Below, piece after piece: positions 9,962-45,875 of a stretch of 59,271 bases of DNA. Origin of the DNA: Clostridia bacterium. Its GTDB lineage: Bacteria > Bacillota > Clostridia > Christensenellales > Aristaeellaceae. Numbering within the stretch: the stretch's first letter is position 1; the number at the start of each line of letters is the position of its first letter. The DNA lies in NCBI GenBank assembly GCA_017431005.1, contig JAFRLY010000042.1, positions 1 through 59,271 of the forward strand, written 5' to 3'. A program made the translations under genes and the position numbers. Under the pieces are notes generated by a model that was not told the origin of the DNA, made no database searches, and was given only the letters and a program-made list of their open reading frames with translations.

Positions 9962-12900
9962 GTGCTTTACCCGCGCTCCAAGGAAAAAATACCGGATCCC
10001 GGACTGTTCCGGAATCCCGGCTCCGAATACCGCGCCGCACCCTTCTGGGCATGGAACTGCGACCTGGACGAGGACCTGCTGAAGCGGGAAATCGGTTATA
10101 TGAAACAGATGGGAATGGGCGGCTTTCATATGCATCCCCGCAGCGGGATGGCTGTTCCGTATCTGTCCGAGGCGTTTATGAACCGGATCCGCACCTGCGT
10201 GGAGGAGGCGCGGAAACTGGGCATGCTGGCCTGGCTGTACGACGAGGACCGGTGGCCGTCCGGATTTGCCGGGGGCTTCGTGACGGAAAAGGAGGAAAAC
10301 CGCCAGCGCTTCCTGCTGATGACGCCGAAAGCGCCCGGCCCGGACGGGGGACGGGTGCTCGCCCGGTATGAGGTGACGCTGGACGGACGCGGATCGCTGA
10401 CAGGCTACCGGCGGCTCGCCGAAAACGGGGAAGCTGCCGGAACGATATGGTACGCGGCGGAAAAGCAGACCGTGCCGAGCGCCTGGTTCCATTTCCGCGG
10501 GTATACGGATACCATGAATCCCGCGGCTATCCGCGACTTTATCCGCATCACGCATGAGCGGTACCGGGAAGCGCTTGGCAGCGACCTGGGCGGAATCTGC
10601 CCGGCGATCTTTACGGACGAGCCGCAGATGCCGCGCAGAACCGTGCTCTCCCGCTCGACGGATCTGCAGGACGTGCTGCTGCCATGGACCGCCGGGTTGG
10701 AGGAAAGCTATCGGGCGGCCTGGAAAGAAAGCCTGCTGGACCGCCTGCCGGAGGTGATCTGGGAACAGCCGGAGGGGATTTCCCCTGTGCGCTGGCGCTT
10801 TTTTGACCATACGACGGAACGCTTTGTTTCCGCCTTCAGCGACCAGATCGGAAAATGGTGCCGCGAACACGGCATCCTGATGACCGGCCACATGATGTCC
10901 GAGCAGACGCTGGAAAGCCAGTCCGGCGCCGTGGGCGAGGTGATGCGCGCCTACCGCGGCTTCACGCTGCCGGGGGTGGACCAGCTGTGCGACGGACGGG
11001 AGTTCACGACTGTGAAGCAGGCGGCCTCCGCCGCGCATCAGCAGGGGTGCCCCGGCGTGGCCAGCGAGCTGTACGGCGTGACAAACTGGGATTTCGACTT
11101 CAAGGGACACAAGCTGCAGGGGGACTGGCAGGCTGCCCTCGGGGTGACTGTGCGCGTGCCGCACCTGTACTGGTGCTCGATGCACGGGGAATCCAAACGC
11201 GATTATCCGGCCTCCATCGGCCACCAGAGCGCCTGGTGGCGGGAATATCCGTTCATTGAGGACCACTTTGCCCGAGTGAATACCCTGATGACCCGCGGGA
11301 AGCCGCTGATCCGCGTCGGCGTGATCCATCCGGTGGAATCCTGCTGGATCGCGTTCGGCCCGGAGGACCGGACCGGTCTGAAACGGGCGGAGCTTGACCG
11401 CCGCTTCGCCGAGCTGACACGGTGGCTGCTGGAGGACACGCTCGATTTTGACTATATCTGTGAATCCACGCTGCCGGATCTGTTCCGGGCGGGGGAGGGC
11501 GCCTTTACGGTGGGGGAGATGTCCTATGACGCCGTGATCGTGCCCGGCTGTGAAACGCTGCGCCGCACGACGATGGCCGCGCTGGCGGACTTCCGAGCCC
11601 GCGGGGGACAGATCATCTTCCTCGGTGCGGCGCCGCGCTATGTGGACGCCCTGCCGGGCGGCGACGCGGCGCGCTTCAGTGAAGGCTGCGAATGCCTGCC
11701 CTGGGACCGGGTGCGGCTGAACGGCAACCTGGACCGTCTGCGGGAGATCCGGATTGTGACAGAGCGCGGCAGGCCCGCCAAAAACCTGCTGTGCGCCATC
11801 CGGCAGGACGGCGGCTGCCGCAATGTTCTGATCGTGCACGGAGAGCCTGCCCGGCACGGCGCGCCGGACGAGCCGGAGACATATACCGTCACCCTGACCG
11901 GCCTGTGGACGGCGGAGATCTGGGATACGCTGACCGGGGATATCCGTCCGGCGGAAACCTCCGTCAGGGAGGAAAACACGGAGCTGACCTGGCGCTGCTG
12001 GGGACAGGACAGCCTGCTGCTGCGGCTGACCCCGGCCAGATCGGGGGACGGCCGGCGGGCTGCCGCACGGGAAGCCGCGCTTGATGGCAGCTACGGAATC
12101 CATATGGCGGAGGAGCTGAGCCGGGACCGCGGAAGCCGGAACGGACGCCCGCTGCCGCCGCCGGAGGAAATCATCCGCGGCGAGGATAACGTGCTGGTGC
12201 TGGATACCGCCGAATGGCGGACCGACGCGGATCCCTGGGAAAGCGCGGAGGAAATGCTCCGCATCGGCCTGAGGGCCAAGGAGAAGCTCGGCATTTCCAC
12301 TGCTGCGGCCTCCGGCGCGCAGCCGTGGGCGCTGCCTCCTGAGAAACCGGAGCATACCCTCTCCCTGCGGATTTCGTTCCGCACGGAAATCGCACTGCCT
12401 GCCGCGCGTCTGGCCCTGGAGGACGCGGAGGAATGCCGCGTGACACTAGACGGCGCGCCGCTGAGTGATGAACAGGACGGCTTTTTCACGGATGAGGCCA
12501 TCCGCTGCTTCCCGACCGGCCCCCTGCGGGAGGGCGTGCATACCGTTGAGCTTACCCGGCCGCTGACGGCTGCCGCTTGCACGGAAAACCTGTTCCTGCT
12601 GGGAGATTTCGGCGTGCGCGTAGCCGGGAGGGAAACCGCGGTGGTGCAGGCACCTCGGACGCTTGATTACGGCGACTGGACCGCGCAGGGGCTGCCGTTC
12701 TACTCCGGCCCCCTGACCTGCCGCTGGCATCTGGCCGGCGGAGAGCGTCTCCGGCTCCGGCTGGGACTGTTTTCCGCGCCGTGCGTGACGGTGGCGCTGG
12801 ACGGGAAGCGGATCGCGAACGTATCCCTCTCCCCCTCGGAGGCGGACCTGGGGCTCCTGAGCGAGGGAGACCATGTGCTGGACATCACCGTGTATCCCAG

Positions 12901-13063
12901 CCGGATCAATTCCTTCGGGACGTTCCATCTGAACGATTATTCCGTGATCTGGTTCGGCCCGCAGGCATGGAGAAGCACCGGAATGCGCTGGACGTACAAT
13001 TACCGTCTGGCGCCTTCCGGCCTGCTCAGCGAACCGTATCTGTTTGCCGATGAAGAGAAATGA
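9962..13063 (+). CDS. GH106-like alpha-L-rhamnosidase family protein
   Basis: A 1033-residue protein beginning at GTG 9962 behind AGGAGAGGAG, two bases after the mannosidase stop. The N-terminus (NPGSEYRAAPFWAWN, then GYMKQMGMGGFHMHPRSGM and LAWLYDEDRWPSG) is that of the large GH106/alpha-L-rhamnosidase-like group with a TIM barrel; further family-like blocks are AIFTDEPQMPRR, HGILMTGHMMSEQ and WDFDFKGHKLQGDWQAALGV. The C-terminal region is beta-rich, as in jelly-roll accessory domains. There is no signal peptide, so it is probably cytoplasmic. Rhamnosidase activity is the family assignment; some members act on other sugars. Confidence 0.8.
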   Translation: MLYPRSKEKIPDPGLFRNPGSEYRAAPFWAWNCDLDEDLLKREIGYMKQMGMGGFHMHPRSGMAVPYLSEAFMNRIRTCVEEARKLGMLAWLYDEDRWPSGFAGGFVTEKEENRQRFLLMTPKAPGPDGGRVLARYEVTLDGRGSLTGYRRLAENGEAAGTIWYAAEKQTVPSAWFHFRGYTDTMNPAAIRDFIRITHERYREALGSDLGGICPAIFTDEPQMPRRTVLSRSTDLQDVLLPWTAGLEESYRAAWKESLLDRLPEVIWEQPEGISPVRWRFFDHTTERFVSAFSDQIGKWCREHGILMTGHMMSEQTLESQSGAVGEVMRAYRGFTLPGVDQLCDGREFTTVKQAASAAHQQGCPGVASELYGVTNWDFDFKGHKLQGDWQAALGVTVRVPHLYWCSMHGESKRDYPASIGHQSAWWREYPFIEDHFARVNTLMTRGKPLIRVGVIHPVESCWIAFGPEDRTGLKRAELDRRFAELTRWLLEDTLDFDYICESTLPDLFRAGEGAFTVGEMSYDAVIVPGCETLRRTTMAALADFRARGGQIIFLGAAPRYVDALPGGDAARFSEGCECLPWDRVRLNGNLDRLREIRIVTERGRPAKNLLCAIRQDGGCRNVLIVHGEPARHGAPDEPETYTVTLTGLWTAEIWDTLTGDIRPAETSVREENTELTWRCWGQDSLLLRLTPARSGDGRRAAAREAALDGSYGIHMAEELSRDRGSRNGRPLPPPEEIIRGEDNVLVLDTAEWRTDADPWESAEEMLRIGLRAKEKLGISTAAASGAQPWALPPEKPEHTLSLRISFRTEIALPAARLALEDAEECRVTLDGAPLSDEQDGFFTDEAIRCFPTGPLREGVHTVELTRPLTAAACTENLFLLGDFGVRVAGRETAVVQAPRTLDYGDWTAQGLPFYSGPLTCRWHLAGGERLRLRLGLFSAPCVTVALDGKRIANVSLSPSEADLGLLSEGDHVLDITVYPSRINSFGTFHLNDYSVIWFGPQAWRSTGMRWTYNYRLAPSGLLSEPYLFADEEK

Positions 13064-13093: not shown

Positions 13094-15550
13094 TTACAGC
13101 TCCAGGACCGGCAGCCCGGCGGCCAGGGCGGCGCTGCGCCGCAGCTGGGCCGCGGGTTCCGCCGGAGCCTCCAGGGTGATGATATATCGGAATTCGTGCC
13201 AGCCGCCCAGATCCGCCGCGAAATTGGTTTCCCAGTAATTATTCATGATACGGCTGCGGATTTCCGCGCGGTTCAGGGAGATACTCTGCCTGTCACAAAG
13301 CGTGACGGGCCCTTTTTCATTTTCGCCGAAGGAAACCAGCGGCACATCCGGGCTGGTGACGAGCAGGTCAAAACCGCTCCCCCTGCGGAGGATTCCGTTC
13401 TGCAGGCACCAGAAGGCCTGGCAGGTTCCCGGCAGCTGGTCGATTCCCGGACGGATCACGCAGCCGGTCTTATCGATCCAGGTTTCGTTGTCCCCGTCAG
13501 TGACAAACGGCAGCGCCAGCTGGATTTCCTCCGGATCATGACAGCTCCTTTTGCGGATGCGTACCCGGACGTCCATCCGCGGAACGGCTTTGTAAAGCTT
13601 CAGGTCCACCGCGCACGCGTCCGTGCCCTCCAGATCGTACTCCACGCGCAGCGTGACGAAGACAGGTCCGTCCTCCGCAACCGCAAAGCGCTTCGGCCGG
13701 GCGGCATATTCCCGCGTGTTGATCGTTGCCCGGCGGCGGCCCATTCTCCGCCGGGAGGAGGTCACCGGCCCGGCTGCCGGCGTAACGTAATACAGGCAGG
13801 TGAAGGCGCCGAAACGGCAGGCCGGATCCAGCAGCTCCCGCCCCGTGCGGCGGTCGGTGACGGAAGCGATCCCCTTTGCCGCGTCTGTGCGGACAGTGAA
13901 GCAGGCGGTCTCCACCACCTCGGGCAGGCAGAGCCCGGAAATATCCGCCTGGTCCGTCATCGCGTCCGCGCACATCCACGCGGTATGCGGCGGCATGCCC
14001 GTATCCGCGGGGGCATATTCCAGCTGCAGTTCCCGGTTTTCCCCCGGAGCGAGCTTGAGCATTGTTTCCACGAGGCGGCCCCGGGGTCCGGGACCTGTCT
14101 GGGACGGCAGGAGAGCGCCTGACGCGGTATCCCGCAGCGCCAGCGGCCGGCTCTCCTGCTGCCGGCCTTCCGGATATTCCCAGCCAAGCAGCGGAATGGC
14201 GGCCGGCATGACGACCGGGAACGGGTAAGGATTGATCACCCGCGCGCGGCCGGGGCGTTCGGGCCGGATGACCCGGTTTCCCAGTCCGGCAAGCACGCCG
14301 TCCAGCAGCGCGCTGGCCGCGGTGTCCGCGTTCACGGCGAAGGCGGTTTTCCGCAGCAGCATGGAGGCGACCAACGGGCTGTAAGGATCGGAGACGGAGG
14401 AGGAATGTCCCCAGGTATGCTCCGCGAACAGCATCATGCTTTCCCCGGCCTCCCGGCGGAGCGCGTCATCGGTCCTTTTTCCGCCGGGATCCAGCAGCGC
14501 GGCAGTATTCCGGCAGCGCTGCGCCCCGCGGTAAAGTTTGACAGCTTCGGGCGTGGAGCCGATCCCGTCCGCCCACCAGTCGGTCCAGTCTCCGGCATAT
14601 TCCGGAATCTCCGCACCGGAGGAGGACAGCTCCTCAAAAAAGGCGTCCAGCGTGGTCATCCGCAGGAACACCCTGCCGCCGAAGCGCCCGTTGAGCCAGT
14701 TGACCCGCTCCGCCACGCGCGCGTTCGGAGGCGAATTATCGGACAGAATGCCGCTGACAAACACCGGTACGAAGTCCAGCGGCCAGCCCGCATCCTCCAG
14801 ACCGGCCAGGTACCGTGTGATACGGGCCACCGCCAGGTCTGTTTCCTCCGCGTCTGTCGTTTCGGCGTCCGTGGTGAAGAGGCGGCCGCTTTCAATCGCC
14901 TGCAGGAAATCATCGTTCAGCATAAACGAGGACGTTCCCCGGGGACAGAGCCCCAGCACATGCCCCCAGTGGTAGTGCTCCCCGCAGAAGGCCAGCACGC
15001 TCTTTCCTGCCGGCCCGCGCCACCGGAAGAACGCCGGGTTCCGGTGCAGGGGATACATCCCGTGGTGGGTATGCACCGCGCTGTAGAAATACCGGACGCC
15101 GGCATCCGCCAGCGCGTCCGGCAGCGCGGCGGAATATCCGTTCACGTCCGCCGTCATGGCGCTGCGAAGGCTCAGGCCGTTTTCGCCGGCCCAGGCGGCG
15201 GCCCGGGCCAGGTGCTCCCGGAGCACGGTGTCATCAATGAGGTCCGTCAGATTCAGATAGGACGCGCTCAGGCCGATGCGTCCCTCCCGGACATAGCGGA
15301 CAAAGTCCGTGCGGTCCGCTTCGGAGGCGGATTTCAGGAACTGCTCCACCTGCCAGAAATTTTCACACTGCCAGCGGAAGCCCTGCTGCTCCCCGGCCTT
15401 TCCGGCCTCCTCCCGGCGCAGAAGCTCCACGGCTCCGCGCAGGAATTCCCCGTGCTGGCGGGCAGCCAGCTCCTGCCGGACGGTATAGCCGACATCCGTA
15501 TGGGAATGATGCAACACATCAATCCGCCATGCTCTTTTCAGTTCCTTCAC
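13094..15550 (-). CDS. Divergent GH38-like glycoside hydrolase
   Basis: An 818-residue protein from a GTG at 15550, chosen because AGGAGG lies five bases before it and because the longer frame (to 15634) only translates a hairpin. The GH38 N-terminal pattern is present: HHSHTD (His17, Asp19), TADVNGYS (Asp135, the nucleophile position) and AEHTWGHSSS (zinc-site His region). It is divergent from the GH38 enzyme at 6.8 kb and shorter, and belongs to a subgroup whose substrate is unsettled. It is last in the minus-strand operon with the solute-binding protein and permeases, so it probably acts on the imported glycan. No signal peptide is seen. Confidence 0.75.
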   Translation of the reverse strand: MKELKRAWRIDVLHHSHTDVGYTVRQELAARQHGEFLRGAVELLRREEAGKAGEQQGFRWQCENFWQVEQFLKSASEADRTDFVRYVREGRIGLSASYLNLTDLIDDTVLREHLARAAAWAGENGLSLRSAMTADVNGYSAALPDALADAGVRYFYSAVHTHHGMYPLHRNPAFFRWRGPAGKSVLAFCGEHYHWGHVLGLCPRGTSSFMLNDDFLQAIESGRLFTTDAETTDAEETDLAVARITRYLAGLEDAGWPLDFVPVFVSGILSDNSPPNARVAERVNWLNGRFGGRVFLRMTTLDAFFEELSSSGAEIPEYAGDWTDWWADGIGSTPEAVKLYRGAQRCRNTAALLDPGGKRTDDALRREAGESMMLFAEHTWGHSSSVSDPYSPLVASMLLRKTAFAVNADTAASALLDGVLAGLGNRVIRPERPGRARVINPYPFPVVMPAAIPLLGWEYPEGRQQESRPLALRDTASGALLPSQTGPGPRGRLVETMLKLAPGENRELQLEYAPADTGMPPHTAWMCADAMTDQADISGLCLPEVVETACFTVRTDAAKGIASVTDRRTGRELLDPACRFGAFTCLYYVTPAAGPVTSSRRRMGRRRATINTREYAARPKRFAVAEDGPVFVTLRVEYDLEGTDACAVDLKLYKAVPRMDVRVRIRKRSCHDPEEIQLALPFVTDGDNETWIDKTGCVIRPGIDQLPGTCQAFWCLQNGILRRGSGFDLLVTSPDVPLVSFGENEKGPVTLCDRQSISLNRAEIRSRIMNNYWETNFAADLGGWHEFRYIITLEAPAEPAAQLRRSAALAAGLPVLEL

Positions 15551-15590
15551 GCCTGCCTCCTCCCGCGTTTCCGGCAACAGTACTGAAACA

Positions 15591-15619
15591 GGGGCTGCCG
15601 CGGAAACCGCAGCAGCCCC
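15591..15619 (-). terminator. Intercistronic hairpin between binding-protein and hydrolase genes
   Basis: On the minus strand GGGGCTGCTGCGG, loop TTT, CCGCGGCAGCCCC: a 13-bp stem with one mismatch. It lies 18 bases after the solute-binding protein stop and has only a short U-stretch after it. Such hairpins often stabilise the upstream binding-protein mRNA and reduce downstream expression. Confidence 0.6.
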
Positions 15620-15637
15620 CTGCAGAAAGGTCATCCA

Positions 15638-17269
15638 TCAGTTCTGGGACGCGTACCACTCGTTGGCTTCGTTCGTCAGCGTTTCGCCGCCGGCGCTCAT
15701 CCAGTCAGCGACAAAGTCATCCCAGGTATCCAGGGAACGATCGCCGCGGATGAAGTCAACATACGCTTCATCGCGGATGGTGTTCACTTCGCCGAACAGT
15801 TCGCCGGCGCTGGGAAGTGTTTCGGTGACGACATCCTGGATGTAGCTGTTGTACTGATCCTTCTTGAACCAGTTGAGGCGGTTCGCGATGGTCTTGTCAT
15901 TGTAGAAGGCCAGGTTGTAGCCCAGCTCGGAGAAAGCACGGTCGCTGCCGTACAGGCTGCGGCATCCCCAGACGCCTACGGCGTTCAGGTCTTCGTTGCC
16001 CATCAGGCGGGTGATGGTGCCGTCCTCATTCTTCGTGTAGTGTTCTCCCTCGATCCCGGCGAAGGCAAGCATGTACAGCTCGTCATCCGTCGCAAAGGCG
16101 TTCAGGATCTTGAAGATCACAGCCAGCTTCTCATCGGAAACATTGGCGTTGTACACGGCGCTTTCGCTGACCGCCACAGGCGTTCCGACCTCCCAGCCGT
16201 AATCGCCGTTCGGGCCGGCCGGCCACGGGCCGTACACGAAGGTGGAATCCTCACCGTTGACCTGCCAGTATTCCGTCGCGCAGCGTCCGCCCGCGTCATC
16301 CGGACCGGCGATGCCCTTGAGGCGGTAGTGGTCGATGGACGCGTTGGCGCTCACGCCGTAGATTCCGTTCACCATGCCGTGGGAGATGGCCCAGTAGCTG
16401 CCCTCCACGGATTCCTTGCCGGCGACGAATTCCTTGTCAATCAGACCCTTGGCGTACATGTCGGCCAGAATGCCGATGACGGTCTTCGCGTCGTCCGCTA
16501 CGTCGCTGCTGACTACCTTGCCGTCCCGCAGCACCCAGTAGGAGGTGCTGCCGGAGAAGCCGGTGCCGAGGCCGTACGAGCCGAACAGCGCCTTCATCGC
16601 GGTGATGGAGCAGCCGTAGGTGTTGGCTTCACCGTCGCCGTCCGGGTCTTCATTGGTGAAGCGTTCCATCAGACCGACAAACTCATCCACCGTCTTCGGC
16701 AGGGTTTCCTCCGTCACGCCCAGCTTGTCCAGCCAGTCGCCGCGGTAGATCAGGGTCTTGTAGGGCATGGAGCCGTCCGGCTTGAAGGAGGGAAGGACAA
16801 CCATTTTGCCGTCCCGGACAGCGGCCTTCTTCCAGGCCTCCACGTCGTCCTTCAGGTCGCCGTAGGCGGCGCCGTTCATCACAAAGTTCCAGACGTCCGG
16901 AGCATTCTCCTGGAGGAACGCCTCGTCCCAGGTGCGGATGACGCCCTGGTCCAGGTATTCATTCAGGGTGGTGGTGCTCTGCGCGAGGAACACGTCGGGG
17001 GCGGTGCCGCCGGAAAGCCGGGTGTTCAGGATTTCGGCGTAGTTGCCCTGCTCAATGTAGACGACGTCGATGTCCACATTGATGCCGTGCTTTTCCTTCA
17101 GCATCTTCTCAACAGCGGGGGTGATAACGTCTTTTTCGTTATCGAGCGGTCCGAACATGTAGCCGGCGACGGAGATTTTCATCGGTTCGTCTTCGGCAAC
17201 GGCGGTCGGCACCAGCGCAAGGACCATGACCAGGGCCAGCACCAGCGCAAGGATACGGAAAGCTTTCAT
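15638..17269 (-). CDS. ABC transporter extracellular sugar-binding protein (LplA-like)
   Basis: A 543-residue family 1 solute-binding protein. Residues 1-25 are a signal peptide ending TAVA before EDEPMKISVAGY. The body shows the usual pattern: AEILNTRLSGGTAPDVFLAQ near 95, and a long C-terminal lobe with PSAGELFGEVNTIRDEAYVD. The ~540-residue size is that of the LplA/YtcQ group, which carries oligosaccharides of plant or host glycans to LplB/LplC-type permeases. A clear lipobox cysteine is missing, which is unusual for a Gram-positive binding protein. It is third in an operon after the two permeases. No ATPase gene is in the window, as is usual for this group, which shares an MsmX-type ATPase. 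Confidence 0.92.
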   Translation of the reverse strand: MKAFRILALVLALVMVLALVPTAVAEDEPMKISVAGYMFGPLDNEKDVITPAVEKMLKEKHGINVDIDVVYIEQGNYAEILNTRLSGGTAPDVFLAQSTTTLNEYLDQGVIRTWDEAFLQENAPDVWNFVMNGAAYGDLKDDVEAWKKAAVRDGKMVVLPSFKPDGSMPYKTLIYRGDWLDKLGVTEETLPKTVDEFVGLMERFTNEDPDGDGEANTYGCSITAMKALFGSYGLGTGFSGSTSYWVLRDGKVVSSDVADDAKTVIGILADMYAKGLIDKEFVAGKESVEGSYWAISHGMVNGIYGVSANASIDHYRLKGIAGPDDAGGRCATEYWQVNGEDSTFVYGPWPAGPNGDYGWEVGTPVAVSESAVYNANVSDEKLAVIFKILNAFATDDELYMLAFAGIEGEHYTKNEDGTITRLMGNEDLNAVGVWGCRSLYGSDRAFSELGYNLAFYNDKTIANRLNWFKKDQYNSYIQDVVTETLPSAGELFGEVNTIRDEAYVDFIRGDRSLDTWDDFVADWMSAGGETLTNEANEWYASQN

Positions 17270-17310: not shown

Positions 17311-18192
17311 TCAGCCTTTCAGTGAGCCGATCATAATTCCCTTGACGAAGAACTTCTGAACGAAGGGATACGTACAGAGGATCGGGAAGGTGGTGACAAA
17401 GATGCAGGCGGCCTTCAGCCCCTCCGAGGAAACGACCGATTCCATTTCGGCGGCGTTGGCCGCGGCGCTGGTGTCCAGAATTTCCTTGGAGCCGGTGAGA
17501 ATGATCCGCCGCAGGACGATCTGCAGGGTGAATTTGGTGTCGTCCGAAATATAGATCAGGACGTCGAACCAGCTGTTCCAGTGCCCGACCACCAGCCACA
17601 GGGCCACGGTGGCGAGGATGGGTTTGGACAGCGGCAGGATAATCTGCAGGAAGATGCGGAACCGGCCGGCGCCGTCGATCAGGCAGCTTTCCTCAATCTC
17701 CTCCGGCAGGCTCTGGAAATAGTTCCGGATGATGACCATGTTGTACGCGCTGATCAGCCCGGGCAGGATCATGGACGCGTAGGTGTCCAGCAGGCCGAGC
17801 CCCTTGACCAGCAGATAATTCGGAATCAGGCCGCCGGAGAAGAACATCGTGAAGACGATGAACAGCGTCCAGAAGGTGCGGTGCGGGAAAAACCGCTTGC
17901 TGAGCACGTAGGCCCCCATCGAGGTGAAAAAGAGCTGCAGCACCGTACCGATGACCGTGCGGATAATCGTGTTTTTGTAGCCCAGCCAGATGTACCGGTT
18001 GCCGATGACCCGGGCATAGTTGTCCGCCGTCGGGTCCTTCGGCCAGAGCAGCAGACCGCCCCGGGTGGCGATATAGCTGGGACTCAGACTCAGATTGAAC
18101 AGGTGCCAGAAGGCGACGACGATGGAGCCGCACAGCAGGATCAGGAACAGGTAGATCAGGGCCTTGCCGACGGAAAAACGATTGTGTTTCAT
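17311..18192 (-). CDS. Carbohydrate ABC transporter permease (LplC/YtcP-like)
   Basis: A 293-residue inner-membrane permease with about six transmembrane helices. The N-terminal cytoplasmic part is short, and the EAA-type loop that docks the ATPase is at IEESCLIDGAGRFRIFLQII (residues ~187-206: E-S-C-x-I-D-G-A-G, the usual EAAxxDGA form). The C-terminus ends in VKGIMIGSLKG, typical of the MalG-like partner in this family. It lies 14 bases after the other permease gene and before the binding protein gene. Its substrate is probably a mannose- or rhamnose-containing oligosaccharide, judged only from the neighbours. Confidence 0.93.
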   Translation of the reverse strand: MKHNRFSVGKALIYLFLILLCGSIVVAFWHLFNLSLSPSYIATRGGLLLWPKDPTADNYARVIGNRYIWLGYKNTIIRTVIGTVLQLFFTSMGAYVLSKRFFPHRTFWTLFIVFTMFFSGGLIPNYLLVKGLGLLDTYASMILPGLISAYNMVIIRNYFQSLPEEIEESCLIDGAGRFRIFLQIILPLSKPILATVALWLVVGHWNSWFDVLIYISDDTKFTLQIVLRRIILTGSKEILDTSAAANAAEMESVVSSEGLKAACIFVTTFPILCTYPFVQKFFVKGIMIGSLKG

Positions 18193-18206: not shown

Positions 18207-19169
18207 TTACCAGATGCCTTCGCCGCTGATGCGGCGGGTGATGAGGTTGGTCCCCACCACGAGGATGAAGGCGATCACGTTCTTGAAGAGGCCGACCGCG
18301 GTGGCGAAGGAATATTTCATTTCGCCCAGGCCGTAACGGTACACATAGGTATCAATGATATCGCCGGTTTTGTATACGGCGCTGTTGTACAGATTGAACA
18401 CCTGATCGAACCCGGCGTCCATGATGGAGCCGACGTTGAGGATCAGCATAATCACGATGGTGCTGACCAGGGAGGGAAGCGTGATGTAGCGGGTGCACTG
18501 CCACCGGGTCGCGCCGTCGACGGTCGCGGCCTCGTACAGCGTCGGATCGATGCCGGCGATGGTCGCCAGGTAGAGGATAGAGGACCAGCCGACGTTCTTC
18601 CACAGGTCCGTCGCGATGAGCGTTCCCCGGAAATAATCGTTGCTGCCGAGGAAATATATGGACTCCTTCACGCCGAATACGTCCCGCAGCACGGCGTTGA
18701 CGGCCCCGTTGTTCGGCGACAGCAGCTGCTGAAACATACCGGCCAGCACGACCCAGCTGAGAAAATGGGGCAGGTAGGAAATCGTCTGAACGGTTTTCTT
18801 GAAGCGGAGGTGGGTGACCTCATTCAGCATGAGCGCCAGCAGGATCGGCGCCGGGAAACCGAAAAGGAGCTTCAGCCCGCTGATCGTCAGCGTATTGGTG
18901 ACCGAGCGGCCGAAGGTGGCGGTGCGGAAGGCCTTGCTGAAATTGTCAAATCCGCACCAGGCGCTGCCGAAAATCCCCTGGCTGATCTTGAAATTCTTGA
19001 AGGCGATGACAATGCCGGCCATCGGGATATACTTAAAGACGGAAAAATAAAGGACAACGGGAACGAACATCAGGGTAAGCGCCGCGTATTTTTTATAACC
19101 GGCGAACCCGTGGAGCCAGCGGCCGAAAGCGGAATCACGCTTCGGCACATGCGAACCGGCAACGGACAA
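18207..19169 (-). CDS. Carbohydrate ABC transporter permease (LplB/YteP-like)
   Basis: A 320-residue permease, the MalF-like partner. It has the family signature FKYIPMAGIVIAFKNFKISQ at residues ~45-64, the loop YEAATVDGATRWQ (EAA motif) near 218, and ends RRISGEGIW. The first codon is TTG, 10 or so bases after GAGGGGG; a later ATG would delete the cytoplasmic N-terminus. It is the first gene of the importer operon (permease, permease, binding protein, GH38-like hydrolase), downstream of the AraC gene on the same strand. Confidence 0.92.
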   Translation of the reverse strand: MSVAGSHVPKRDSAFGRWLHGFAGYKKYAALTLMFVPVVLYFSVFKYIPMAGIVIAFKNFKISQGIFGSAWCGFDNFSKAFRTATFGRSVTNTLTISGLKLLFGFPAPILLALMLNEVTHLRFKKTVQTISYLPHFLSWVVLAGMFQQLLSPNNGAVNAVLRDVFGVKESIYFLGSNDYFRGTLIATDLWKNVGWSSILYLATIAGIDPTLYEAATVDGATRWQCTRYITLPSLVSTIVIMLILNVGSIMDAGFDQVFNLYNSAVYKTGDIIDTYVYRYGLGEMKYSFATAVGLFKNVIAFILVVGTNLITRRISGEGIW

Positions 19170-19317: not shown

Positions 19318-20049
19318 TCAGGGCTTGCGGAAACCCTTGCGGTATTTCTGCGGGGCGACCCCGTAGTATTTGCGGAAGGCGCGGGTGAAGGTGCTGGAAT
19401 CGGTATATCCGCACGCGTAGCAGACCTCTTCGTTCGGCAGCCCCTTGTTCAGCAGGGTGACAGCGTACTGCATGCGCTGCTGCACAATATACTGGTAAGG
19501 CGTATAGCCGGTTTCCCGCCGGAAGAGGCGGATAAAATAGTTGGGATGGTAGCTGAACAGCTGGCTGAGCCGCTCGATGGTCAGATCCTCGGAGATGTGC
19601 CGGAGGATGTGGCGCTGCACCCGGGTGAGCATCTCGGAATTCGGAACAAAACCCTCCCGGTTCTTCAGGAAGGCGGAAAAAGCTTCCGCCAGCTGCTCCA
19701 GCAGCTCGATCCGTTCCTCCCGGATCGCCGCGGAGACGGCCGCGATGAAATGCTCCAGGCAGCTGCCTTCCTCCACCCGGAACTCGATGAGGCTGCTGAC
19801 CCGGTTGCTGCTGAAATCCACATGGAGATAGGTACAGGCGAACGCCGTTTCCGGATTCCGCCACACATGGTAGGGAATGGTGGAGGGCAGCACATACAGG
19901 CATCCGGGCAGCAGCGCCCGCCGGCCGTCGGCCGCCTCATAGGTAACCTCTCCGGTCAGGACATAGTAGACGCGGGAATAGCCCGTCGGCGATTCCTCGT
20001 TCAGCTCCCAGGTCCTTTTCACCACTGTGTTTCCGTATTCGATCAGCAT
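19318..20049 (-). CDS. AraC-family transcriptional regulator
   Basis: A 243-residue regulator from the ATG at 20049. The N-terminal cupin-like sensing domain (YYVLTGEVTYEAADGRRALL, then LYVLPSTIPYHVW) covers residues ~1-140. Two helix-turn-helix motifs follow at ~160-243, with LTIERLSQLFSYHPNYFIRL, the second HTH region EVCYACGYTDSSTFTRAFRK and the ending YYGVAPQKYRKG, the standard AraC C-terminus. The reading frame continues 83 codons further upstream, but that part crosses the promoter region and looks non-coding. The gene lies between the importer operon and the divergent glycyl radical enzyme gene, so it likely controls one or both in response to a sugar. Confidence 0.88.
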   Translation of the reverse strand: MLIEYGNTVVKRTWELNEESPTGYSRVYYVLTGEVTYEAADGRRALLPGCLYVLPSTIPYHVWRNPETAFACTYLHVDFSSNRVSSLIEFRVEEGSCLEHFIAAVSAAIREERIELLEQLAEAFSAFLKNREGFVPNSEMLTRVQRHILRHISEDLTIERLSQLFSYHPNYFIRLFRRETGYTPYQYIVQQRMQYAVTLLNKGLPNEEVCYACGYTDSSTFTRAFRKYYGVAPQKYRKGFRKP

Positions 20050-20082
20050 ATGCGGTTTGTCCTGTTCTCTGTTGGTGCCTCC

Positions 20083-20112
20083 ATTATATACAAAGGCCGG
20101 GATAAAATGCAA
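20083..20112 (-). promoter_or_regulatory. Promoter of the AraC gene
   Basis: On the minus strand TTGCAT (20112-20107), an 18-base spacer and a perfect TATAAT (20088-20083), about 34 bases before the ATG. TGCAAA-type hexamers recur in the 196-base divergent region (20109, 20142 inverted, 20214) and might be regulator sites. Confidence 0.6.
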
Positions 20113-20174
20113 ACGGAAACGGACGGCATTCATCTTACTTTTTGCATATTTTCTGCTTATTCCTGCACTTCGCT

Positions 20175-20203
20175 TTGTTCCTGCCCTTTTCTTACAATAT
20201 ATA
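20175..20203 (+). promoter_or_regulatory. Promoter of the glycyl radical enzyme operon
   Basis: TTGTTC (20175-20180), a 17-base spacer and TATATA (20198-20203), 43 bases before the ATG at 20246. It points away from the AraC promoter, so the two share one control region. Confidence 0.5.
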
Positions 20204-20245
20204 CGGATGAAAAGCTGCAAATCAGACGATTTTCGGAGGCGGACT

Positions 20246-22516
20246 ATGAGGGGATACCTGGCGTGGGATGACGCGCATCTGGAGGACAGCCTGGACATGG
20301 AGTTCAGGTATACGCAGGTTTACCGGGAAAACAGGGACCGCTCCCCGGCCATGCGGGAGCTGAAGTGCCTGGAGGTGGCCCTGCCTGCCGCGGTTGCCCC
20401 GGCCCGCGCCGGGGATCTGCTGGCCGGGCGGCGCATGTTCCGACCGCTGGGCGTGGCGCCCAGCTACTGGGACGATGATACCGACGGACTGGACAACGTC
20501 TCCTTCTACGCGGATATCGGCCGGCTGGAACGGGTGATGAACCGCCCCTCCCAGACCCCGGAGAGCCAGGCGGAGATTGCCGCGCTGATCGATTTCTGGA
20601 AAAAGGAAAACGTGAACGCGAAGGTCCGTGCGCGGTTTGATGGGGAGATGCGGCGCGAGATGCCCAGCGACATGTGGTCGCGGGATTCCGGCGTGATCTT
20701 CGGCCTCTACCGGCTGGTGTTTTCCCAGCTTGATTACGACAAGCTGGTGCGCCTCGGCCTGCCGGGCCTGAGGGCGGAGGTTTCCGCCCGGATGGCGGAT
20801 CCGTCCCTGACCGAGGAACAGAAGGACTTTCTGCAGGCGCTCGTGTCGCTGACCGGCCTGCTGACGGAAATCCTCGGCCTGTATGAGGAGCAGTTCCGGC
20901 AGCTGCTGGCGGAAGGCGGGGATCCGGCGGGGATCCGGCCGGTACTGGACAGCCTTGCGCGGCTGAAAACCGGCGCGCCGGTGTGCTTCCGCGACGCGCT
21001 GCAGCTGGTGTGGATCTATTCCGCCCTGACCGGCGGACGGGATTTCGGCCGGATGGACGTTTACCTGGGCGATCTCTACGCGCAGGATCTGGACAGCGGC
21101 GCGCTGACGGAGGAGGAAGCGGTTGAGCTGCTGCTTTCCTTCTACCGGCTGATGAAGGAAACGGACAGCCGGGACGGCCGGATTGTGATGGGCGGGCTGG
21201 GACGCCGGAACCCGGAGAACGCGGACCGCGTTTCCCTGGCGATCATGAAGGCGGGGCTGCGCTTCCGCGAACTGAAGCCGGAATTCTCCCTGCGGATGTA
21301 CAAGGGCCTTTCCGAGGAAGTGATCAGCTTCGCCCTGAAAATGCTGGGGGACGGGATGACCTACCCTCTGCTGTTCAACGATGAGGCTTCCGTGCGCGCG
21401 GTGGAAAACATGATGCATGTTTCCCCCTGCGAGGCGGAGCAGTATGGATTTTTCGGATGCGGGGAATATGTGCTGGGTCACCGCAGCATCGGCACCCCCA
21501 ACGACATCATCAACCTGGCCAAAGCGCTGGAGGTTACGCTGCACGAGGGAACCGATCCGGTCCGTGGCTGCCCGCACGGGCTGAACCTCGGCGCCCCGGA
21601 AAGCTTTGACACCTTCGAAAAGCTGCTGGACGCCTACAGGCGCCAGGTGGAATACTTCACGGAGATCGCCGCCCGGCATCAGCGCCTCGTGTATGATACG
21701 GTGCGCGAAAACGGCGCGATGCTGCTGATGAGTCTGCTGATGGACGACTGCGTCGCACGGGCAAAGCCCCTGGTGGACGGCGGGGTGCGGTACCTGGCCG
21801 GCACCTACGAGACCTACGGCAACACGACGGTTTCCGACAGCCTGACCGCCATCCGGGAATATGTGTATGAAAAGAAGCTTCTCACCCTGCGGGAACTGGT
21901 GGACATTCTTGACGCGGATTTCGCCGGGCACGAGGAGCTGCGCCAGCGGCTGCTGCGCTGCCCCAAATTCGGGAATGACGATTCCGCGGCGGATGAAATG
22001 GCCCGGACGGTCAACACCCACGTGTTTGAAACGACAGCCCGGCAGGCGAAGGCGCAGGGCCTTTCCTCCTATCTGGTGGTGATGATCAATAACGGCGCGA
22101 ACGTGGATCTGGGGCGGAACACCCTGGCCACGGCGGACGGGCGCCACGCGTACACCTATCTCTCCAACGGCAACAACCCGATGGCCGGGATGGATCACGC
22201 CGGCCTGCCGGCGCTGCTGCGCTCGCTAGCGTCCACCCGGATGGACATGACGGCCGGTACCGCGCAGAACCTGAAGCTCAGCGCCGACCTGTTCCGGAAA
22301 CATCCGGACGTGGTGCGGGATCTGATCGACACGGCGTTCGACATGGGGATCCTGTCCCTGAACATCAGCGTGATGGACCGCGGCGAGATGGAGGACGCCA
22401 TGATCCATCCGGAGCTGCACCAGAATCTGTTTGTGCGCGTGGGCGGATTCAGCGCCCGGTTTGTGAACCTGGACAGCGGCACCCAGGTGGATATGCTTTC
22501 CCGCGCCCTGTACTGA
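20246..22516 (+). CDS. Glycyl radical enzyme, dehydratase-like, substrate unknown
   Basis: A 756-residue member of the pyruvate formate-lyase/glycyl radical superfamily. The start at ATG 20246 has CGGAGGCGG before it; an open frame 73 codons longer crosses the promoter. The radical site is Gly734 in RVGGFSARF, 22 residues from the C-terminus. The thiyl cysteine is Cys405 in YGFFGCGEYVLG. The C-x-E arrangement (Glu407) plus Asp420 matches the GCVE...D pattern of glycerol/diol dehydratases and choline lyase rather than the CC pair of pyruvate formate-lyase. The following gene is its activase. It would be oxygen-sensitive and needs anaerobiosis. No microcompartment genes are nearby. The substrate is unknown; the position beside a sugar importer suggests a sugar-derived polyol or acid. 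Confidence 0.9.
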   Translation: MRGYLAWDDAHLEDSLDMEFRYTQVYRENRDRSPAMRELKCLEVALPAAVAPARAGDLLAGRRMFRPLGVAPSYWDDDTDGLDNVSFYADIGRLERVMNRPSQTPESQAEIAALIDFWKKENVNAKVRARFDGEMRREMPSDMWSRDSGVIFGLYRLVFSQLDYDKLVRLGLPGLRAEVSARMADPSLTEEQKDFLQALVSLTGLLTEILGLYEEQFRQLLAEGGDPAGIRPVLDSLARLKTGAPVCFRDALQLVWIYSALTGGRDFGRMDVYLGDLYAQDLDSGALTEEEAVELLLSFYRLMKETDSRDGRIVMGGLGRRNPENADRVSLAIMKAGLRFRELKPEFSLRMYKGLSEEVISFALKMLGDGMTYPLLFNDEASVRAVENMMHVSPCEAEQYGFFGCGEYVLGHRSIGTPNDIINLAKALEVTLHEGTDPVRGCPHGLNLGAPESFDTFEKLLDAYRRQVEYFTEIAARHQRLVYDTVRENGAMLLMSLLMDDCVARAKPLVDGGVRYLAGTYETYGNTTVSDSLTAIREYVYEKKLLTLRELVDILDADFAGHEELRQRLLRCPKFGNDDSAADEMARTVNTHVFETTARQAKAQGLSSYLVVMINNGANVDLGRNTLATADGRHAYTYLSNGNNPMAGMDHAGLPALLRSLASTRMDMTAGTAQNLKLSADLFRKHPDVVRDLIDTAFDMGILSLNISVMDRGEMEDAMIHPELHQNLFVRVGGFSARFVNLDSGTQVDMLSRALY

Positions 22517-22517
22517 T

Positions 22518-23396
22518 ATGCGCGGAATCATTACGGATATTATCCCCTTCTCCGTCAACGACGGGCCGGGGATCCGCACCGGCGTTTTTTTCAAGGGCTG
22601 CCCCCTGCGGTGCCGGTGGTGCCATAACCCGGAAACGCAGCGCCCCGCGCCGCAGGTGATGGTGCTTACCACCCGCTGTGTCCGCTGCGGCGCCTGCGCA
22701 GCCTGCCCCGCCGGAGCGCGCGGAAAGCACGGGGAGCTGGATTCGGCCCGGTGCACCGGCTGCGGCCTGTGCGCCGCCGTCTGCCCGGCGGAGGCCTGCC
22801 GGATCAGCGGGAAGGCAATGACGCCGGAGGAGGTCGTGGTCCGGATCCTGCCGGACCGGCCCTTTTTCCGGAAGCGCGGCGGCGTGACCCTGACGGGCGG
22901 AGAACCGATGGCGCAGCCGGACTTTGCCGCCGCGCTGGCCCGCATGCTGCACCGGGAGGGGATCCACACCGCGGTGGAAACCTGCGGCTATGCTCCCGGG
23001 GACGCGTTCCGGGAGATTCTTCCGTTTACCGGCCTTTTTCTGTTTGACTGGAAGCTCACCGATCCCGCCCAGCACCGGGCGTGGACGGGACAGGACAACC
23101 GGCTGATCCGGGAAAACCTGGAGCTGCTCAACCGGGAAGGTGCGGAGATTATCCTCCGATGCCCTGTGATCCCCGGCGTGAACGATACGCCGGAGCATTT
23201 CCGGGGCATCGCGGAGCTGACGCATGCATATACGCGGATCCGGCGGGTGGATCTGCTGCCCTATCACGCGCTGGGGAACAATAAGCGCAACCAGCTGGGC
23301 CTGCCGAAGGACGGCTTTGATCCGCCGGATGAGCAGACCGCGGAGGAGTGGCAGCAGGAGCTCGGGAGGATCTGCCGGGTGCCGGTATGCCGGTGA
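22518..23396 (+). CDS. Glycyl radical enzyme activase (radical SAM)
   Basis: A 292-residue radical SAM protein. The [4Fe-4S]-SAM cysteines are Cys28, Cys32 and Cys35 in GCPLRCRWCHNPE. An inserted ferredoxin domain with two further clusters follows (Cys54, 57, 60, 64 and Cys79, 82, 85, 89), as in activases of glycerol dehydratase and benzylsuccinate synthase-type enzymes but not in that of pyruvate formate-lyase. The GGEP motif for SAM binding appears as LTGGEPMAQPD at ~133. The gene starts one base after the enzyme's stop codon, so the two are coupled. It makes the glycyl radical on Gly734 of the upstream protein. Confidence 0.94.
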   Translation: MRGIITDIIPFSVNDGPGIRTGVFFKGCPLRCRWCHNPETQRPAPQVMVLTTRCVRCGACAACPAGARGKHGELDSARCTGCGLCAAVCPAEACRISGKAMTPEEVVVRILPDRPFFRKRGGVTLTGGEPMAQPDFAAALARMLHREGIHTAVETCGYAPGDAFREILPFTGLFLFDWKLTDPAQHRAWTGQDNRLIRENLELLNREGAEIILRCPVIPGVNDTPEHFRGIAELTHAYTRIRRVDLLPYHALGNNKRNQLGLPKDGFDPPDEQTAEEWQQELGRICRVPVCR

Positions 23397-23480: not shown

Positions 23481-24374
23481 TTGAAAGGATCTGTGCTGCT
23501 TGACGTCGGCGGAACGGAGATCAAGAGCGCTGCTTATTCCGGTTCCGGGAAACGCCTGGATGCCGTTCATTCGGCGTCGTCGTATGCGCAGGCAGACAGG
23601 GATACCATCCTCGGGAACCTTCTGGCCGTGACAGCCCGGGAGAAGGCTGTGCTGGAGGCAGGCGGATTCCGGCTCGGAGCGGTCGGGCTGGCATTTCCCG
23701 GCCCGTTTGATTATGAGAAGGGGATCTGCCGTATCAGGGGCCTGGCGAAGTATGACGCGATCGAAGGCCTGCCCCTGGAGGATGCCCTGAAAAGCCTTCC
23801 GGGCCAGACGGTTCTGACGCCGGAGGTACGATTCTTTTTCCGGCACGATCTCGAGTCCTTCGCCCGGGGACTCGCGTCCCTGGAGCCCGTCTGCGCGGAA
23901 GGGCGCGTCCTGTGCCTGTGCATCGGGACGGGCGCCGGCTCGGCATTTCTGGAGGGGGGCCGCCTGCTGAAGCAGGCGCCTGGCGTTCCGCCTGACGGTT
24001 GGATCTATCCGTTTCCCTTCCGCGGCTTAACGATTGACGACTGGATCTCCGCGCGGGGCCTGGAACGGCTTGCCCGTGAAGCGGGCTTTCCGCCCGGGAC
24101 CTCCGGGAAGGAGCTGTCCGCTCTGGCGGCGTGGGGAGACCCGCGGGCGGCCGGCGTATGGAGGACCTTCGGTCTTTTCATCGCGGAAGCGCTGCAGCCT
24201 TTTATTGACGCGTTCCGGCCGGACCGGCTGGTGCTGGGGGGACAGATCTCCAAAGCCGAACGGTATTTCGGAAAGGAACTGAAGGACAGGCATACGGAGC
24301 TGCCGGTGCTGACCGTCAGCGATACGACGGAATACACCCTCGAAGGGCTGCTCGTCGCAGACAGGGAGGGCTGA
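23481..24374 (+). CDS. ROK-family sugar kinase
   Basis: A 297-residue sugar kinase starting at TTG 23481 behind AGGAGG. The phosphate loop LLDVGGTEIKSA (residues 6-17), the catalytic Asp in FRHDLESFARG (~residue 119-129) and the second nucleotide motif CIGTGAGSAFLEGG near 155 are seen. The zinc-binding cysteine cluster (CxCGxxGCxE) normally found after that motif in ROK proteins is absent and replaced by YPFPFRGLTIDDW. Next to a mannose-6-phosphate isomerase, it may phosphorylate mannose released by the mannosidases, but glucose, fructose or N-acetyl sugars are equally possible from sequence. Confidence 0.85.
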   Translation: MKGSVLLDVGGTEIKSAAYSGSGKRLDAVHSASSYAQADRDTILGNLLAVTAREKAVLEAGGFRLGAVGLAFPGPFDYEKGICRIRGLAKYDAIEGLPLEDALKSLPGQTVLTPEVRFFFRHDLESFARGLASLEPVCAEGRVLCLCIGTGAGSAFLEGGRLLKQAPGVPPDGWIYPFPFRGLTIDDWISARGLERLAREAGFPPGTSGKELSALAAWGDPRAAGVWRTFGLFIAEALQPFIDAFRPDRLVLGGQISKAERYFGKELKDRHTELPVLTVSDTTEYTLEGLLVADREG

Positions 24375-24425: not shown

Positions 24426-26174
24426 ATGAAATACAGCAGTTTTCACAATTATGACCCTTTCCCATCCGTCCGGGTGACGGGGGAGAACGCGTGCTGCGCG
24501 GAAGGCTGGGAGGCCGTCCTGGCGGAGATACGGAAGCGTATCCCGGAAGGCCGCTGCGTCGTCCTCTGCGAGATGTATCCGGGCGTTGACCAGGACGCGG
24601 TGCAGCGGGAGCTGCGCAGGCTTTCGCCGGCCCTGCTGATTGACACGCGGGAGCTGCTGCTGTCCGCGGACGAGCTGCTGGAGCGCGTGTACGGGGATCA
24701 GGGCAGCGACCGGGTTTTCGGCCTGATGACGCACAGAAGCCTGCGGGACTGCTTTGACGGGGAAAAGCTCAGCAGGGCCCGGGCGGCGATCGAAAAAAAC
24801 CGGGACGGCCTGGTTCTGGTATGTGGAGCGGGAGCCTCCCTAGCGGCGGCAGGCGACGTCCGCCTGTATTTCAACATCACCCGGTGGGAAATTCAGCTCC
24901 GGTACCGGAAGGGTCAGGGCAACTGGGGACTCGGAAACGGGGACGCTCCGCTGCTGACCAAATACAAATACGGCTACTTTGTCCTGTGGCGTATGGCGGA
25001 CCGGCTGAAAACACGGCTGCTTCCGGATGTGGACCTGATGCTCGACGCGAATGACCCGGATGTGCCGAAAATGATTACCGGAGCCGACTACCGCCGGGCG
25101 CTGGAGCAGGCGGCAGGACAGCCGTTCCGCGTCCGGCCCTATTTCGATCCGGGAGTATGGGGCGGCCAATGGATTCGGAAACAGCTGGAGATCCCGACGG
25201 AGGCGGCCAACCTGGCCTGGGGCTTCGACGGCGTGCCGGAGGAAAACGGGCTGGGACTGACCTTCGGAAACAGCACGCTGGAGTTTCCGTGCATTGACCT
25301 GGTGCTGACGCATCCGCATGAGCTGCTGGGGGAAAGGGTGCACGGAAGGTTCGGCGCGGAGTTTCCCATCCGCTTTGACCTGCTGGACACGATGGAGGGC
25401 GGGAATCTTTCCCTGCAGGTGCATCCGCTGACGGAATATATCCAGGAGCAGTTCGGCATGCACTATACGCAGGATGAGAGCTACTATATCCTGGAAGCGG
25501 ACGGGAACAGGGATCCCGCGGTATATCTCGGCGTGAAAACCGGCATCCGCCCGGAGAAAATGATCGCGGAGCTGGAGGACGCACAGCGCGGCGGCGCGCC
25601 GTTTGATGCGGAAAGGTATGTAAATCGGATCCCGGTGAAAAAGCACGACCACCTGCTGATCCCGGCCGGAACGGTTCACTGCTCCGGCGCGGATACCGTG
25701 GTGCTGGAGATCAGCGCCACGCCCTATATTTTTACCTTCAAGCTCTGGGACTGGGGGCGGGTCGGCCTGGACGGGCTGCCGCGGCCGATTCACATCAGCC
25801 ACGGAAAAAATAATATTCAGTGGGACCGGAACACGGAGTGGGTGAACCGGGAGCTGGTGAACAGAACTGAAACCGTCTGCCGGGAGGACGGTGTCCTGGC
25901 GGAGCACACGGGCCTGCATCCCCGGGAATTCATTGAGACCATCCGTTACACGCTGTCCAGGCCGCACACCTGCCGGTGCAATGACAGCGTCCATGTGATC
26001 AATCTGGTGGAGGGAAAGGAGATGACCATCGAAAGTCCGGACGGTTCATTCCGGCCGTTTGCCGTTCACTATGCAGAGACGGTGATCCTTCCCGCGGCGG
26101 TCGGGGAATACCGCCTGTGTCCGACGGCGGAAAGCACGGAAATCAGGGTGATTGACGCCTGCGTGAGGCCGTAG
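24426..26174 (+). CDS. manA: Class I mannose-6-phosphate isomerase with extra N-terminal domain
   Basis: A 582-residue protein. Residues ~225-582 are a cupin-type mannose-6-phosphate isomerase, with zinc ligands Gln331 and His333 in SLQVHPL, Glu351 in TQDESYYILEA and His418 in PAGTVHCSG, and the ending typical of the short bacterial form. The first ~220 residues are an added domain: IPEGRCVVLCEMYPGVD, LVLVCGAGASLAAAGD and LYFNITRWEIQLRYRKGQGN suggest an alpha/beta fold like nucleoside or sugar kinases, but no Walker A P-loop is present, so its job is unknown. Bacterial isomerases of this class are normally about 310-320 residues. It follows the ROK kinase by 51 bases, giving a mannose to fructose-6-phosphate route. 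Confidence 0.85.
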   Translation: MKYSSFHNYDPFPSVRVTGENACCAEGWEAVLAEIRKRIPEGRCVVLCEMYPGVDQDAVQRELRRLSPALLIDTRELLLSADELLERVYGDQGSDRVFGLMTHRSLRDCFDGEKLSRARAAIEKNRDGLVLVCGAGASLAAAGDVRLYFNITRWEIQLRYRKGQGNWGLGNGDAPLLTKYKYGYFVLWRMADRLKTRLLPDVDLMLDANDPDVPKMITGADYRRALEQAAGQPFRVRPYFDPGVWGGQWIRKQLEIPTEAANLAWGFDGVPEENGLGLTFGNSTLEFPCIDLVLTHPHELLGERVHGRFGAEFPIRFDLLDTMEGGNLSLQVHPLTEYIQEQFGMHYTQDESYYILEADGNRDPAVYLGVKTGIRPEKMIAELEDAQRGGAPFDAERYVNRIPVKKHDHLLIPAGTVHCSGADTVVLEISATPYIFTFKLWDWGRVGLDGLPRPIHISHGKNNIQWDRNTEWVNRELVNRTETVCREDGVLAEHTGLHPREFIETIRYTLSRPHTCRCNDSVHVINLVEGKEMTIESPDGSFRPFAVHYAETVILPAAVGEYRLCPTAESTEIRVIDACVRP

Positions 26175-45614: not shown

Positions 45615-45765
45615 CCGGGTTCGGATAGAGGCGCGGCAGACAGGAGTAGCGCGGGGGAGCCCGGCCGGGGCAGGGAACCTGCGGGAAAGGGAATGCCGCC
45701 GAAGCGTGCCGGCATGGCAGACGGCAGGCTGGGACGGAGGAAAACATCCTTCGGACTGTCATGGG
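45615..45765 (+). promoter_or_regulatory. Lysine riboswitch (L-box) aptamer
   Basis: The leader contains the conserved blocks of the lysine riboswitch in order: AGAGGCGC (45627-45634), AGGAGTA (45642-45648), GGGAATGCCGCCGAAG (45689-45704), GGCTGG (45727-45732) and ACTGTC (45755-45760). GATAG (45624-45628) can pair with CTGTC (45756-45760) to close the P1 stem, and CGGAGGA/TCCTTCG forms P5. This matches the layout of the Bacillus subtilis lysC leader. It should lower transcription of the downstream dapA-dapB-ddh genes when lysine is plentiful, through the terminator at 45876. Confidence 0.85.
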
Positions 45766-45875
45766 CGGACGTGTCCGCGCATGGAGCGCTATTCATGAAG
45801 ACGTTTCCGCAGAATCCGGAAGAACAGCGGCGCCGGAGCGCGCCGGCTGCATCGGAGCTTTGCGAGAATGATACG

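Follow-up and report, generated by a model that had tools for sequence, protein, structure and literature searches.

Which reaction is carried out by a glycyl radical enzyme (GRE) that stands, together with its activase, beside a sugar importer and a set of glycosidases? The question is raised by a contig from a Clostridia bacterium (Christensenellales; Aristaeellaceae; GenBank assembly GCA_017431005.1, contig JAFRLY010000042.1), the whole of which, 59,271 nucleotides, is called the window here. Many abundant GREs of the gut are without known function, as stated in the available excerpt of PMC11574389. Judged by sequence, the window enzyme is a member of a real, conserved and deep GRE family for which we found no characterised member. 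The genes of this family are mostly found in sugar loci, often beside mannose-type enzymes where the neighbours can be annotated, and in Bacteroidota and Planctomycetota a gene for a PhyH-type oxygenase is often found near the GRE gene, a link that is newly seen here.

Position of the family among glycyl radical enzymes

The window protein carries PFL-like and Gly_radical domains over the Pfam cut-offs, keeps the radical glycine and the catalytic cysteine and has a cognate activase, which places it in the GRE superfamily. Cys405, Gly406, Glu407 and Gly734 were located at the positions that an earlier, sequence-only reading of the window had given, and the domain matches confirm its pairing of the GRE with an adjoining activase. 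The ATG start is preceded by GGAGG. In the activase, the radical-SAM motif CPLRCRWC lies at residues 28-35 and ferredoxin-type Cys motifs begin at residues 54 and 79. These two extra clusters, which had been taken for a peculiarity, are present but not special, because the activase passes the cut-off of the general GRE-activase family TIGR02494 (310 bits; cut-off 174), in which two such motifs are presumably usual. By analogy with other GREs, a radical would be formed at Gly734. The AlphaFold model of the GRE (pTM 0.86) is roughly equally close to many solved GREs, and the window's genome, which is 85% complete, contains one Gly_radical match only.

A careful tree was built from 41 rows, after long or redundant ones had been dropped from a set of 56, and does not include IslA, HpsG, HplG or benzylsuccinate synthase. 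In this tree, all 22 family rows fall on one side of a branch with 100/100 in two supports, and YbiW, PflD, glycerol dehydratase, CutC, HYPD and IAD fall on the other; the separating branch has a length of 0.96, with 0.12 beyond the midpoint root, and two quick trees agree with the split. The window GRE thus stands apart from six characterised enzymes and clusters with none of them, in line with the earlier view that it is unlike the usual propanediol, glycerol or choline system. With the family profile, members from the window's genus score 811 to 1322 bits, solved GREs at most 397 bits (a CutC chain with two GRE-like stretches), and IslA, HplG and benzylsuccinate synthase 231 to 365 bits. 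The window enzyme itself stays below the cut-off of the formate C-acetyltransferase/glycerol dehydratase subfamily TIGR01774 (276 bits; cut-off 678) and below those of the equivalogs for HYPD, CutC, HpsG, HpfG, IAD, HPAD, PFL1 and PRK09983 (70-237 bits; cut-offs 994-1150). The family alignment A1 comprises the window and 18 full-length family loci, out of 25 from our genome-contig scan. In the open-licence literature, no paper among the matches listed was recognised as dealing with this family, to which the available excerpts of PMC8950772 and PMC7798349 have no relation either.

The nearest solved chain brings up a first alternative. YbiW and PflD are reportedly anhydrohexitol-6-phosphate lyases, which open the ring of a phosphorylated 1,5-anhydrohexitol, and the window enzyme might do likewise, yielding 1-deoxyfructose-6-phosphate for subsequent cleavage by an aldolase. 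YbiW is the best solved-chain match by single sequence (194 bits; 26% identity) and, when scores are taken per domain, by the family profile too (384 bits, with glycerol dehydratase at 377 and CutC at 364), and the family member of Maledivibacter lies in a locus with phosphotransferase system (PTS) genes, a class II aldolase and a Gfo/Idh oxidoreductase. However, the tree groups YbiW and PflD with glycerol dehydratase and not with this family, an FSA-type aldolase scores over the cut-off in only two of 12 genomes tested and is unmatched in both the window's genome and a 97% complete relative, and no PTS gene is found among the scanned neighbours in the window. We thus consider this reaction improbable for the family. 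Anhydroglycolysis of the E. coli type, which was tested by way of the FSA aldolase and the tree, has been reduced to this rival.

Within the genus of the window, six of 45 genomes, its own included, carry a family member, and the locus is therefore accessory. Of the 53 loci from the genome-contig scan, 18 hold full-length orthologues (65 to 88% identity), eight of them under titles that name the gut of goat, sheep or water buffalo. Seven further full-length loci, at 34 to 41% identity, come from Ruminiclostridium, Maledivibacter, Opitutaceae (two), Sphingobacteriia, Anaerolineae and Phycisphaeraceae; two C-terminal pieces (L066, L047) and one short stretch (L073) were left out of alignments and trees. 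Plasmid records contributed members from Parabacteroides distasonis and Persicobacter. The P. distasonis gene (L101:17923-20202, plus strand) lies on NZ_OY725812.1, a record that is called a plasmid and carries ftsH, nusB and coaE, housekeeping genes that make it possibly a piece of a chromosome. By profile search, members were found in seven of 394 other genomes of Bacteroidota (the phylum of the L040 genome) and in five of 342 others of Planctomycetota (the phylum of the L046 genome), while a loose first look at 398 genomes of the window's own phylum, its own included, in which two candidates were scored per genome, gave no other match above 245 bits. Members thus come from at least five phyla (Bacillota, Bacteroidota, Planctomycetota, Verrucomicrobiota and Chloroflexota). 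A scan of viral contigs gave no family relative, and a phage search gave distant GREs only, at 24 to 30% identity (five of 28 records, among the matches listed). Outside the family, a Kiritimatiellae contig (L062:133-5842) carries two full-length GREs side by side, preceded by a third frame of 464 aa with a glycyl-radical-like motif.

The active site

No family row departs from Cys405, Glu407 and Gly734 (30 of 30 rows, chosen from the 43 members so as to leave out close copies), so that the loss of Cys405 or Gly734 in relatives, which would have spoken against the earlier reading, is not observed. Position 406 is Gly in 28 of these rows (GCGE) and Thr in two (GCTE), and it is Gly in none of 26 other GREs, which makes GCGE as unusual a context as had been supposed. 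One genome, G006, carries a second member with GCTE in place of GCGE (L097:13444-15753, minus strand) besides its window-type GRE. Arg156, Arg312 and Pro418 are each present in all 30 family rows, and in one, one and none of the 26 other GREs, respectively.

The sequence-only reading had further described the site as dehydratase-style, with Asp420 as the dehydratase aspartate, and here our results point elsewhere. Asp420 is Asp in only seven of 30 family rows, and the column of Asp447 of glycerol dehydratase is occupied by Pro418 throughout, in profile and multiple alignments alike. The column of His164 holds Phe159 in the window GRE, and Phe, Gly or Cys across the family. The six characterised enzymes have longer versions of two segments, one before GRxD and one before RxxxGG, and these are the segments that hold His281/Ser282 and Tyr339 of glycerol dehydratase. 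Comparable shortness also occurs in 5 of 26 and 9 of 26 other GREs, none of which belongs to the six, and so does not mark out the family. We take these numbers (His164, His281/Ser282, Tyr339 and Asp447) to be those of the substrate residues of glycerol dehydratase. With the substrate positions replaced and no grouping with 1r8w in the tree, the enzyme does not look like a glycerol/diol dehydratase. The two short segments hint that the pocket may be roomier.

These replacements bear directly on the simplest alternative, an ordinary dehydratase that would abstract a carbinol hydrogen and eliminate water from a small polyol, deoxy-sugar or sugar acid released by the glycosidases. The fold is the same, Cys and Glu are dehydratase-like, and importer and glycosidase genes are close by. 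However, all four contact positions are replaced, and the surroundings are not those of a diol pathway: the 85% complete genome has no match to bacterial microcompartment (BMC) shell proteins, so the enzyme does not appear to be part of a glycyl radical enzyme microcompartment (GRM), and no alcohol or aldehyde dehydrogenase, and hence none of a diol pathway, was matched among the neighbours scanned (about 1 to 29.6 kb, a subset of the open reading frames of the window). The earlier reading had likewise found neither microcompartment nor dehydrogenase genes nearby. We regard an ordinary dehydratase as unlikely, if worth keeping in mind.

The invariant Arg156 and Arg312 raise the alternative of a C-C lyase, either like pyruvate formate lyase (PFL) or of the decarboxylase type, in which Arg residues would hold a carboxylate, and the relatives on plasmid records are indeed annotated as pyruvate formate lyase family proteins. 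PFL itself has a Cys-Cys pair in its active site, according to the excerpts of PMC10591478 and PMC12338860, whereas here a lone Cys is followed by Gly-Glu, and the family profile gives PFL no more than 126 to 127 bits. Such a lyase thus seems very improbable to us.

A PhyH-type oxygenase near the GRE

A gene for a PhyH-type (2-oxoglutarate) oxygenase was first noticed beside the GRE gene at loci L040 and L046 and in Persicobacter. In Bacteroidota, where the genomes counted have zero to two PhyH genes each, one lies within 10 kb of the GRE gene in six of eight genomes (0.05 expected; 5e-13). In Planctomycetota, with 13 to 17 PhyH genes per genome, one lies within 2 kb at four of six assessable loci (0.12 expected; 2e-6), L120, on a contig of 3.4 kb, having been left out. 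After removal of the two genomes of first sighting, the counts are five of seven (9e-11) and three of five (8e-5), respectively. Control loci of other GREs, 29 in number and 378 kb in total, have no PhyH gene. Nor was there a match in the genomes of seven family carriers (three of the window's genus, Ruminiclostridium, Maledivibacter, Opitutaceae and Anaerolineae), lineages that we take to be anaerobic. Eight aligned PhyH proteins keep H108, D110, H198 and R209, which presumably bind iron and oxoglutarate. On the family tree, the presence of PhyH beside the GRE takes six changes for seven of 29 rows. A comparison of the PhyH set with E. coli YbiU (YbiU/DUF1479) gave an hhalign probability of 8.9, and in the literature searched no paper joined glycyl radical and phytanoyl-CoA dioxygenase.

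These observations are a hint that the GRE in the absence of air and the PhyH protein in its presence may perform one and the same sugar chemistry. Several points weigh against it. The distances of 10 and 2 kb were set after the fact, and the statistics are uncorrected for relatedness; five of the six Bacteroidota cases belong to one clade. In the seventh genome of this phylum (G626), the sole PhyH gene is 31 kb away from the GRE, the eighth has none, and L128, L129 and L132 are without PhyH within 10 kb. The PhyH proteins are of at least two types: those of L040, L130, L131 and L133 are 44-61% identical to the one of Persicobacter, and those of L046, L126 and L127 only 21 to 23%. Furthermore, the 29 control loci are not lineage-matched, and many of their hosts are anaerobes.

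The sugar locus and a possible reaction

In the window, the GRE gene is divergent from an AraC-type regulator next to a sugar-type importer of two permeases and a solute-binding protein, as had been described (Table 1). The solved structures yielded a relative neither for the GH38-like protein (E up to 0.001) nor for the 1033-aa protein (E up to 0.1). A lysine riboswitch at 45618-45799 on the plus strand (RF00168; 84 bits, gathering score 30) is the window's sole Rfam match that reaches the gathering score.

Table 1. Coordinates of the GRE, its activase and neighbouring features in the window
Feature	Position	Strand	Remark
MGH1-like glycoside hydrolase	4663..5991	+	PF22422
Xylose-isomerase-like TIM barrel protein	5988..6815	+	
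GH38 alpha-mannosidase	6834..9959	+	four Pfam domains
1033-aa protein, weakly alpha-L-rhamnosidase-like	9962..13063	+	43 bits NF049897, cut-off 1300
Divergent GH38-like glycosidase	13094..15634	-	55 bits PF01074
Extracellular solute-binding protein	15638..17269	-	
Sugar-type ABC permease	17311..18192	-	
Sugar-type ABC permease	18207..19169	-	
AraC-family regulator, divergent	19318..20049	-	start inferred from 243-aa orthologues (open reading frame list: 20298)
Divergent intergenic region AraC/GRE	20050..20245	.	GGAGG before GRE start
GRE, 756 aa	20246..22516	+	PF02901 324 bits and PF01228 63 bits, both above cut-offs
GRE codon Cys405	21458-21460	+	
GRE codon Glu407	21464-21466	+	
GRE codon Gly734	22445-22447	+	
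Radical-SAM activase, 292 aa	22518..23396	+	two ferredoxin-type cluster motifs
ROK-family kinase-like protein	23481..24374	+	weak, 57 bits PF00480
582-aa protein, C-terminal part mannose-6-phosphate-isomerase-like	24426..26174	+	1qwr, 47 bits over 232-462

This sugar-locus setting, already noted from the window, is conserved among close relatives. An AraC gene lies within four genes of the GRE in 40 of 44 placements (exceptions L042 to L045) and an activase gene in 43 (exception L130), L119 and L133 being counted separately although they are the same locus. The window-clade loci of adequate length have the ABC importer in common; GH38-type genes are present in several of them, and in some the series goes on with MGH1, ROK and ManA-like genes. 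An MGH1-like homologue directly follows the activase in seven close-clade loci, and a ROK gene follows it closely in four. Six Bacteroidota loci all carry a GH92-type protein (one of them Pfam-tested) and an aldo-keto reductase (AKR), and five of six each a Gfo/Idh oxidoreductase, a solute-binding protein and a nucleoside-hydrolase-like gene. GH130 is found at L042, L043, L046 and L128. In Parabacteroides and at the second locus of G006, ROK and NanE genes precede a GCTE-type GRE; the order at the latter (L097) is ROK-NanE-GRE-activase-HAD-GH94-like, and the operon start is the same as in P. distasonis. Since GH38, MGH1, ROK and ManA-like genes, GH92, GH130 and the ROK-NanE pair keep returning, mannose-type chemistry recurs, and the neighbours point to mannose-related compounds. 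Other lineages differ, with GH94 in Ruminiclostridium, PTS genes in Maledivibacter, GH3/GH5/GH28 in Anaerolineae and GH20 in Persicobacter, and because the neighbour sets vary by lineage, a substrate common to the whole family is not assured. The neighbours at L129, L130, L132 and L133 are hardly annotated.

Three loci show further features of their own. In Ruminiclostridium (L039:4158-12226), an activase-like gene lies upstream of the GRE, with a GH94-type gene, a short open reading frame and AraC between them. At L128 (4036-5427, plus strand; Bacteroidota), there is a gene for a multihaem cytochrome c at a distance of two genes from the AraC-activase-GRE set, and L124 (Bacteroidota) has a zinc alcohol dehydrogenase-family gene that is closer to glucose dehydrogenase.

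We propose, with about even confidence, that the enzyme may be a radical lyase that breaks an inert bond in a compound of sugar size related to mannose, and that PhyH would be its aerobic counterpart. This proposal draws on the activase, the catalytic Gly, Cys and Glu, the replaced diol-dehydratase residues, the two short active-site segments, the extra Arg residues and the adjoining sugar-type importer and glycosidases. By analogy with other GREs, the activase would generate the radical at Gly734, from where it would be passed to Cys405, whose thiyl would abstract a hydrogen atom from an oxygen-bearing carbon; the adjacent inert bond (a C-O ether, C-OH or C-N) would then be broken by elimination, with assistance from Glu407. 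The resulting sugar fragment could enter central metabolism, perhaps via the ROK-like kinase and the mannose-6-phosphate-isomerase-like protein. In oxygen-exposed phyla, as their genomes suggest, the PhyH near the GRE would hydroxylate the same inert bond when oxygen is present.

In a bolder version, the family would anaerobically open an inert manno-type anhydro-sugar (e.g., unphosphorylated 1,5-anhydromannitol), and the nearby PhyH would be the aerobic C1-hydroxylase that leads from the same compound to mannose, so that the two would make up an oxygen switch for a single inert bond. For Rhizobiaceae, the available excerpt of PMC12441222 describes the reduction of 1,5-anhydrofructose to 1,5-anhydromannitol, which is then hydroxylated at C1 to mannose by an enzyme left unidentified there. 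The manno-type neighbours would fit this version, as would the AKR and Gfo/Idh genes that Bacteroidota have close to the GRE, and the third-best solved relative of the Maledivibacter Gfo/Idh protein is dihydrodiol dehydrogenase (93 bits), which the same excerpt calls a more efficient anhydrofructose reductase in humans (PMC12441222). However, the excerpt terms the C1 hydroxylase P450-family-like and not PhyH (PMC12441222), the Bacteroidota Gfo/Idh protein matches an unassigned protein at 219 bits versus 44 to 46 for anhydrofructose reductase, and FSA over the cut-off is absent from ten of the 12 genomes. This version is thus a long shot. Anhydrofructose reductase was also considered as the nearest relative of the neighbouring Gfo/Idh proteins, and is the best match neither in Bacteroidota nor in Maledivibacter.

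The family is spread over five phyla or more, P. distasonis has a copy, and the reaction on sugars that it catalyses may be a new one. The PhyH link provides a handle that most orphan GREs lack, namely an oxygen-using enzyme that possibly shares the substrate and can be used to find it. If the proposal of a radical lyase with an aerobic counterpart is true, the two enzymes would be an aerobic and anaerobic pair of solutions for one inert sugar bond.

Among known systems, YbiW and PflD (8id7, 8id0) share with the window enzyme the GRE fold and the Cys, Glu and Gly residues, and sugar genes adjoin both of them in E. coli; the window family differs by its separate branch, its shorter segments, Arg156, Arg312 and Pro418, and by the lack of an FSA match in the window's genome. 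From glycerol dehydratase (1r8w) and the 1,2-propanediol dehydratases it differs by the replacement of what we take to be their contact positions, and by the lack of a BMC match. The trans-4-hydroxyproline dehydratase HypD (6vxc) and CutC resemble it in fold, with HypD at the top Z of 34.6, tied with CutC at 34.1, but the window GRE scores only 237 and 199 bits, respectively, where their equivalog cut-offs are 1100 and 1050, and lies far apart from both in the tree.

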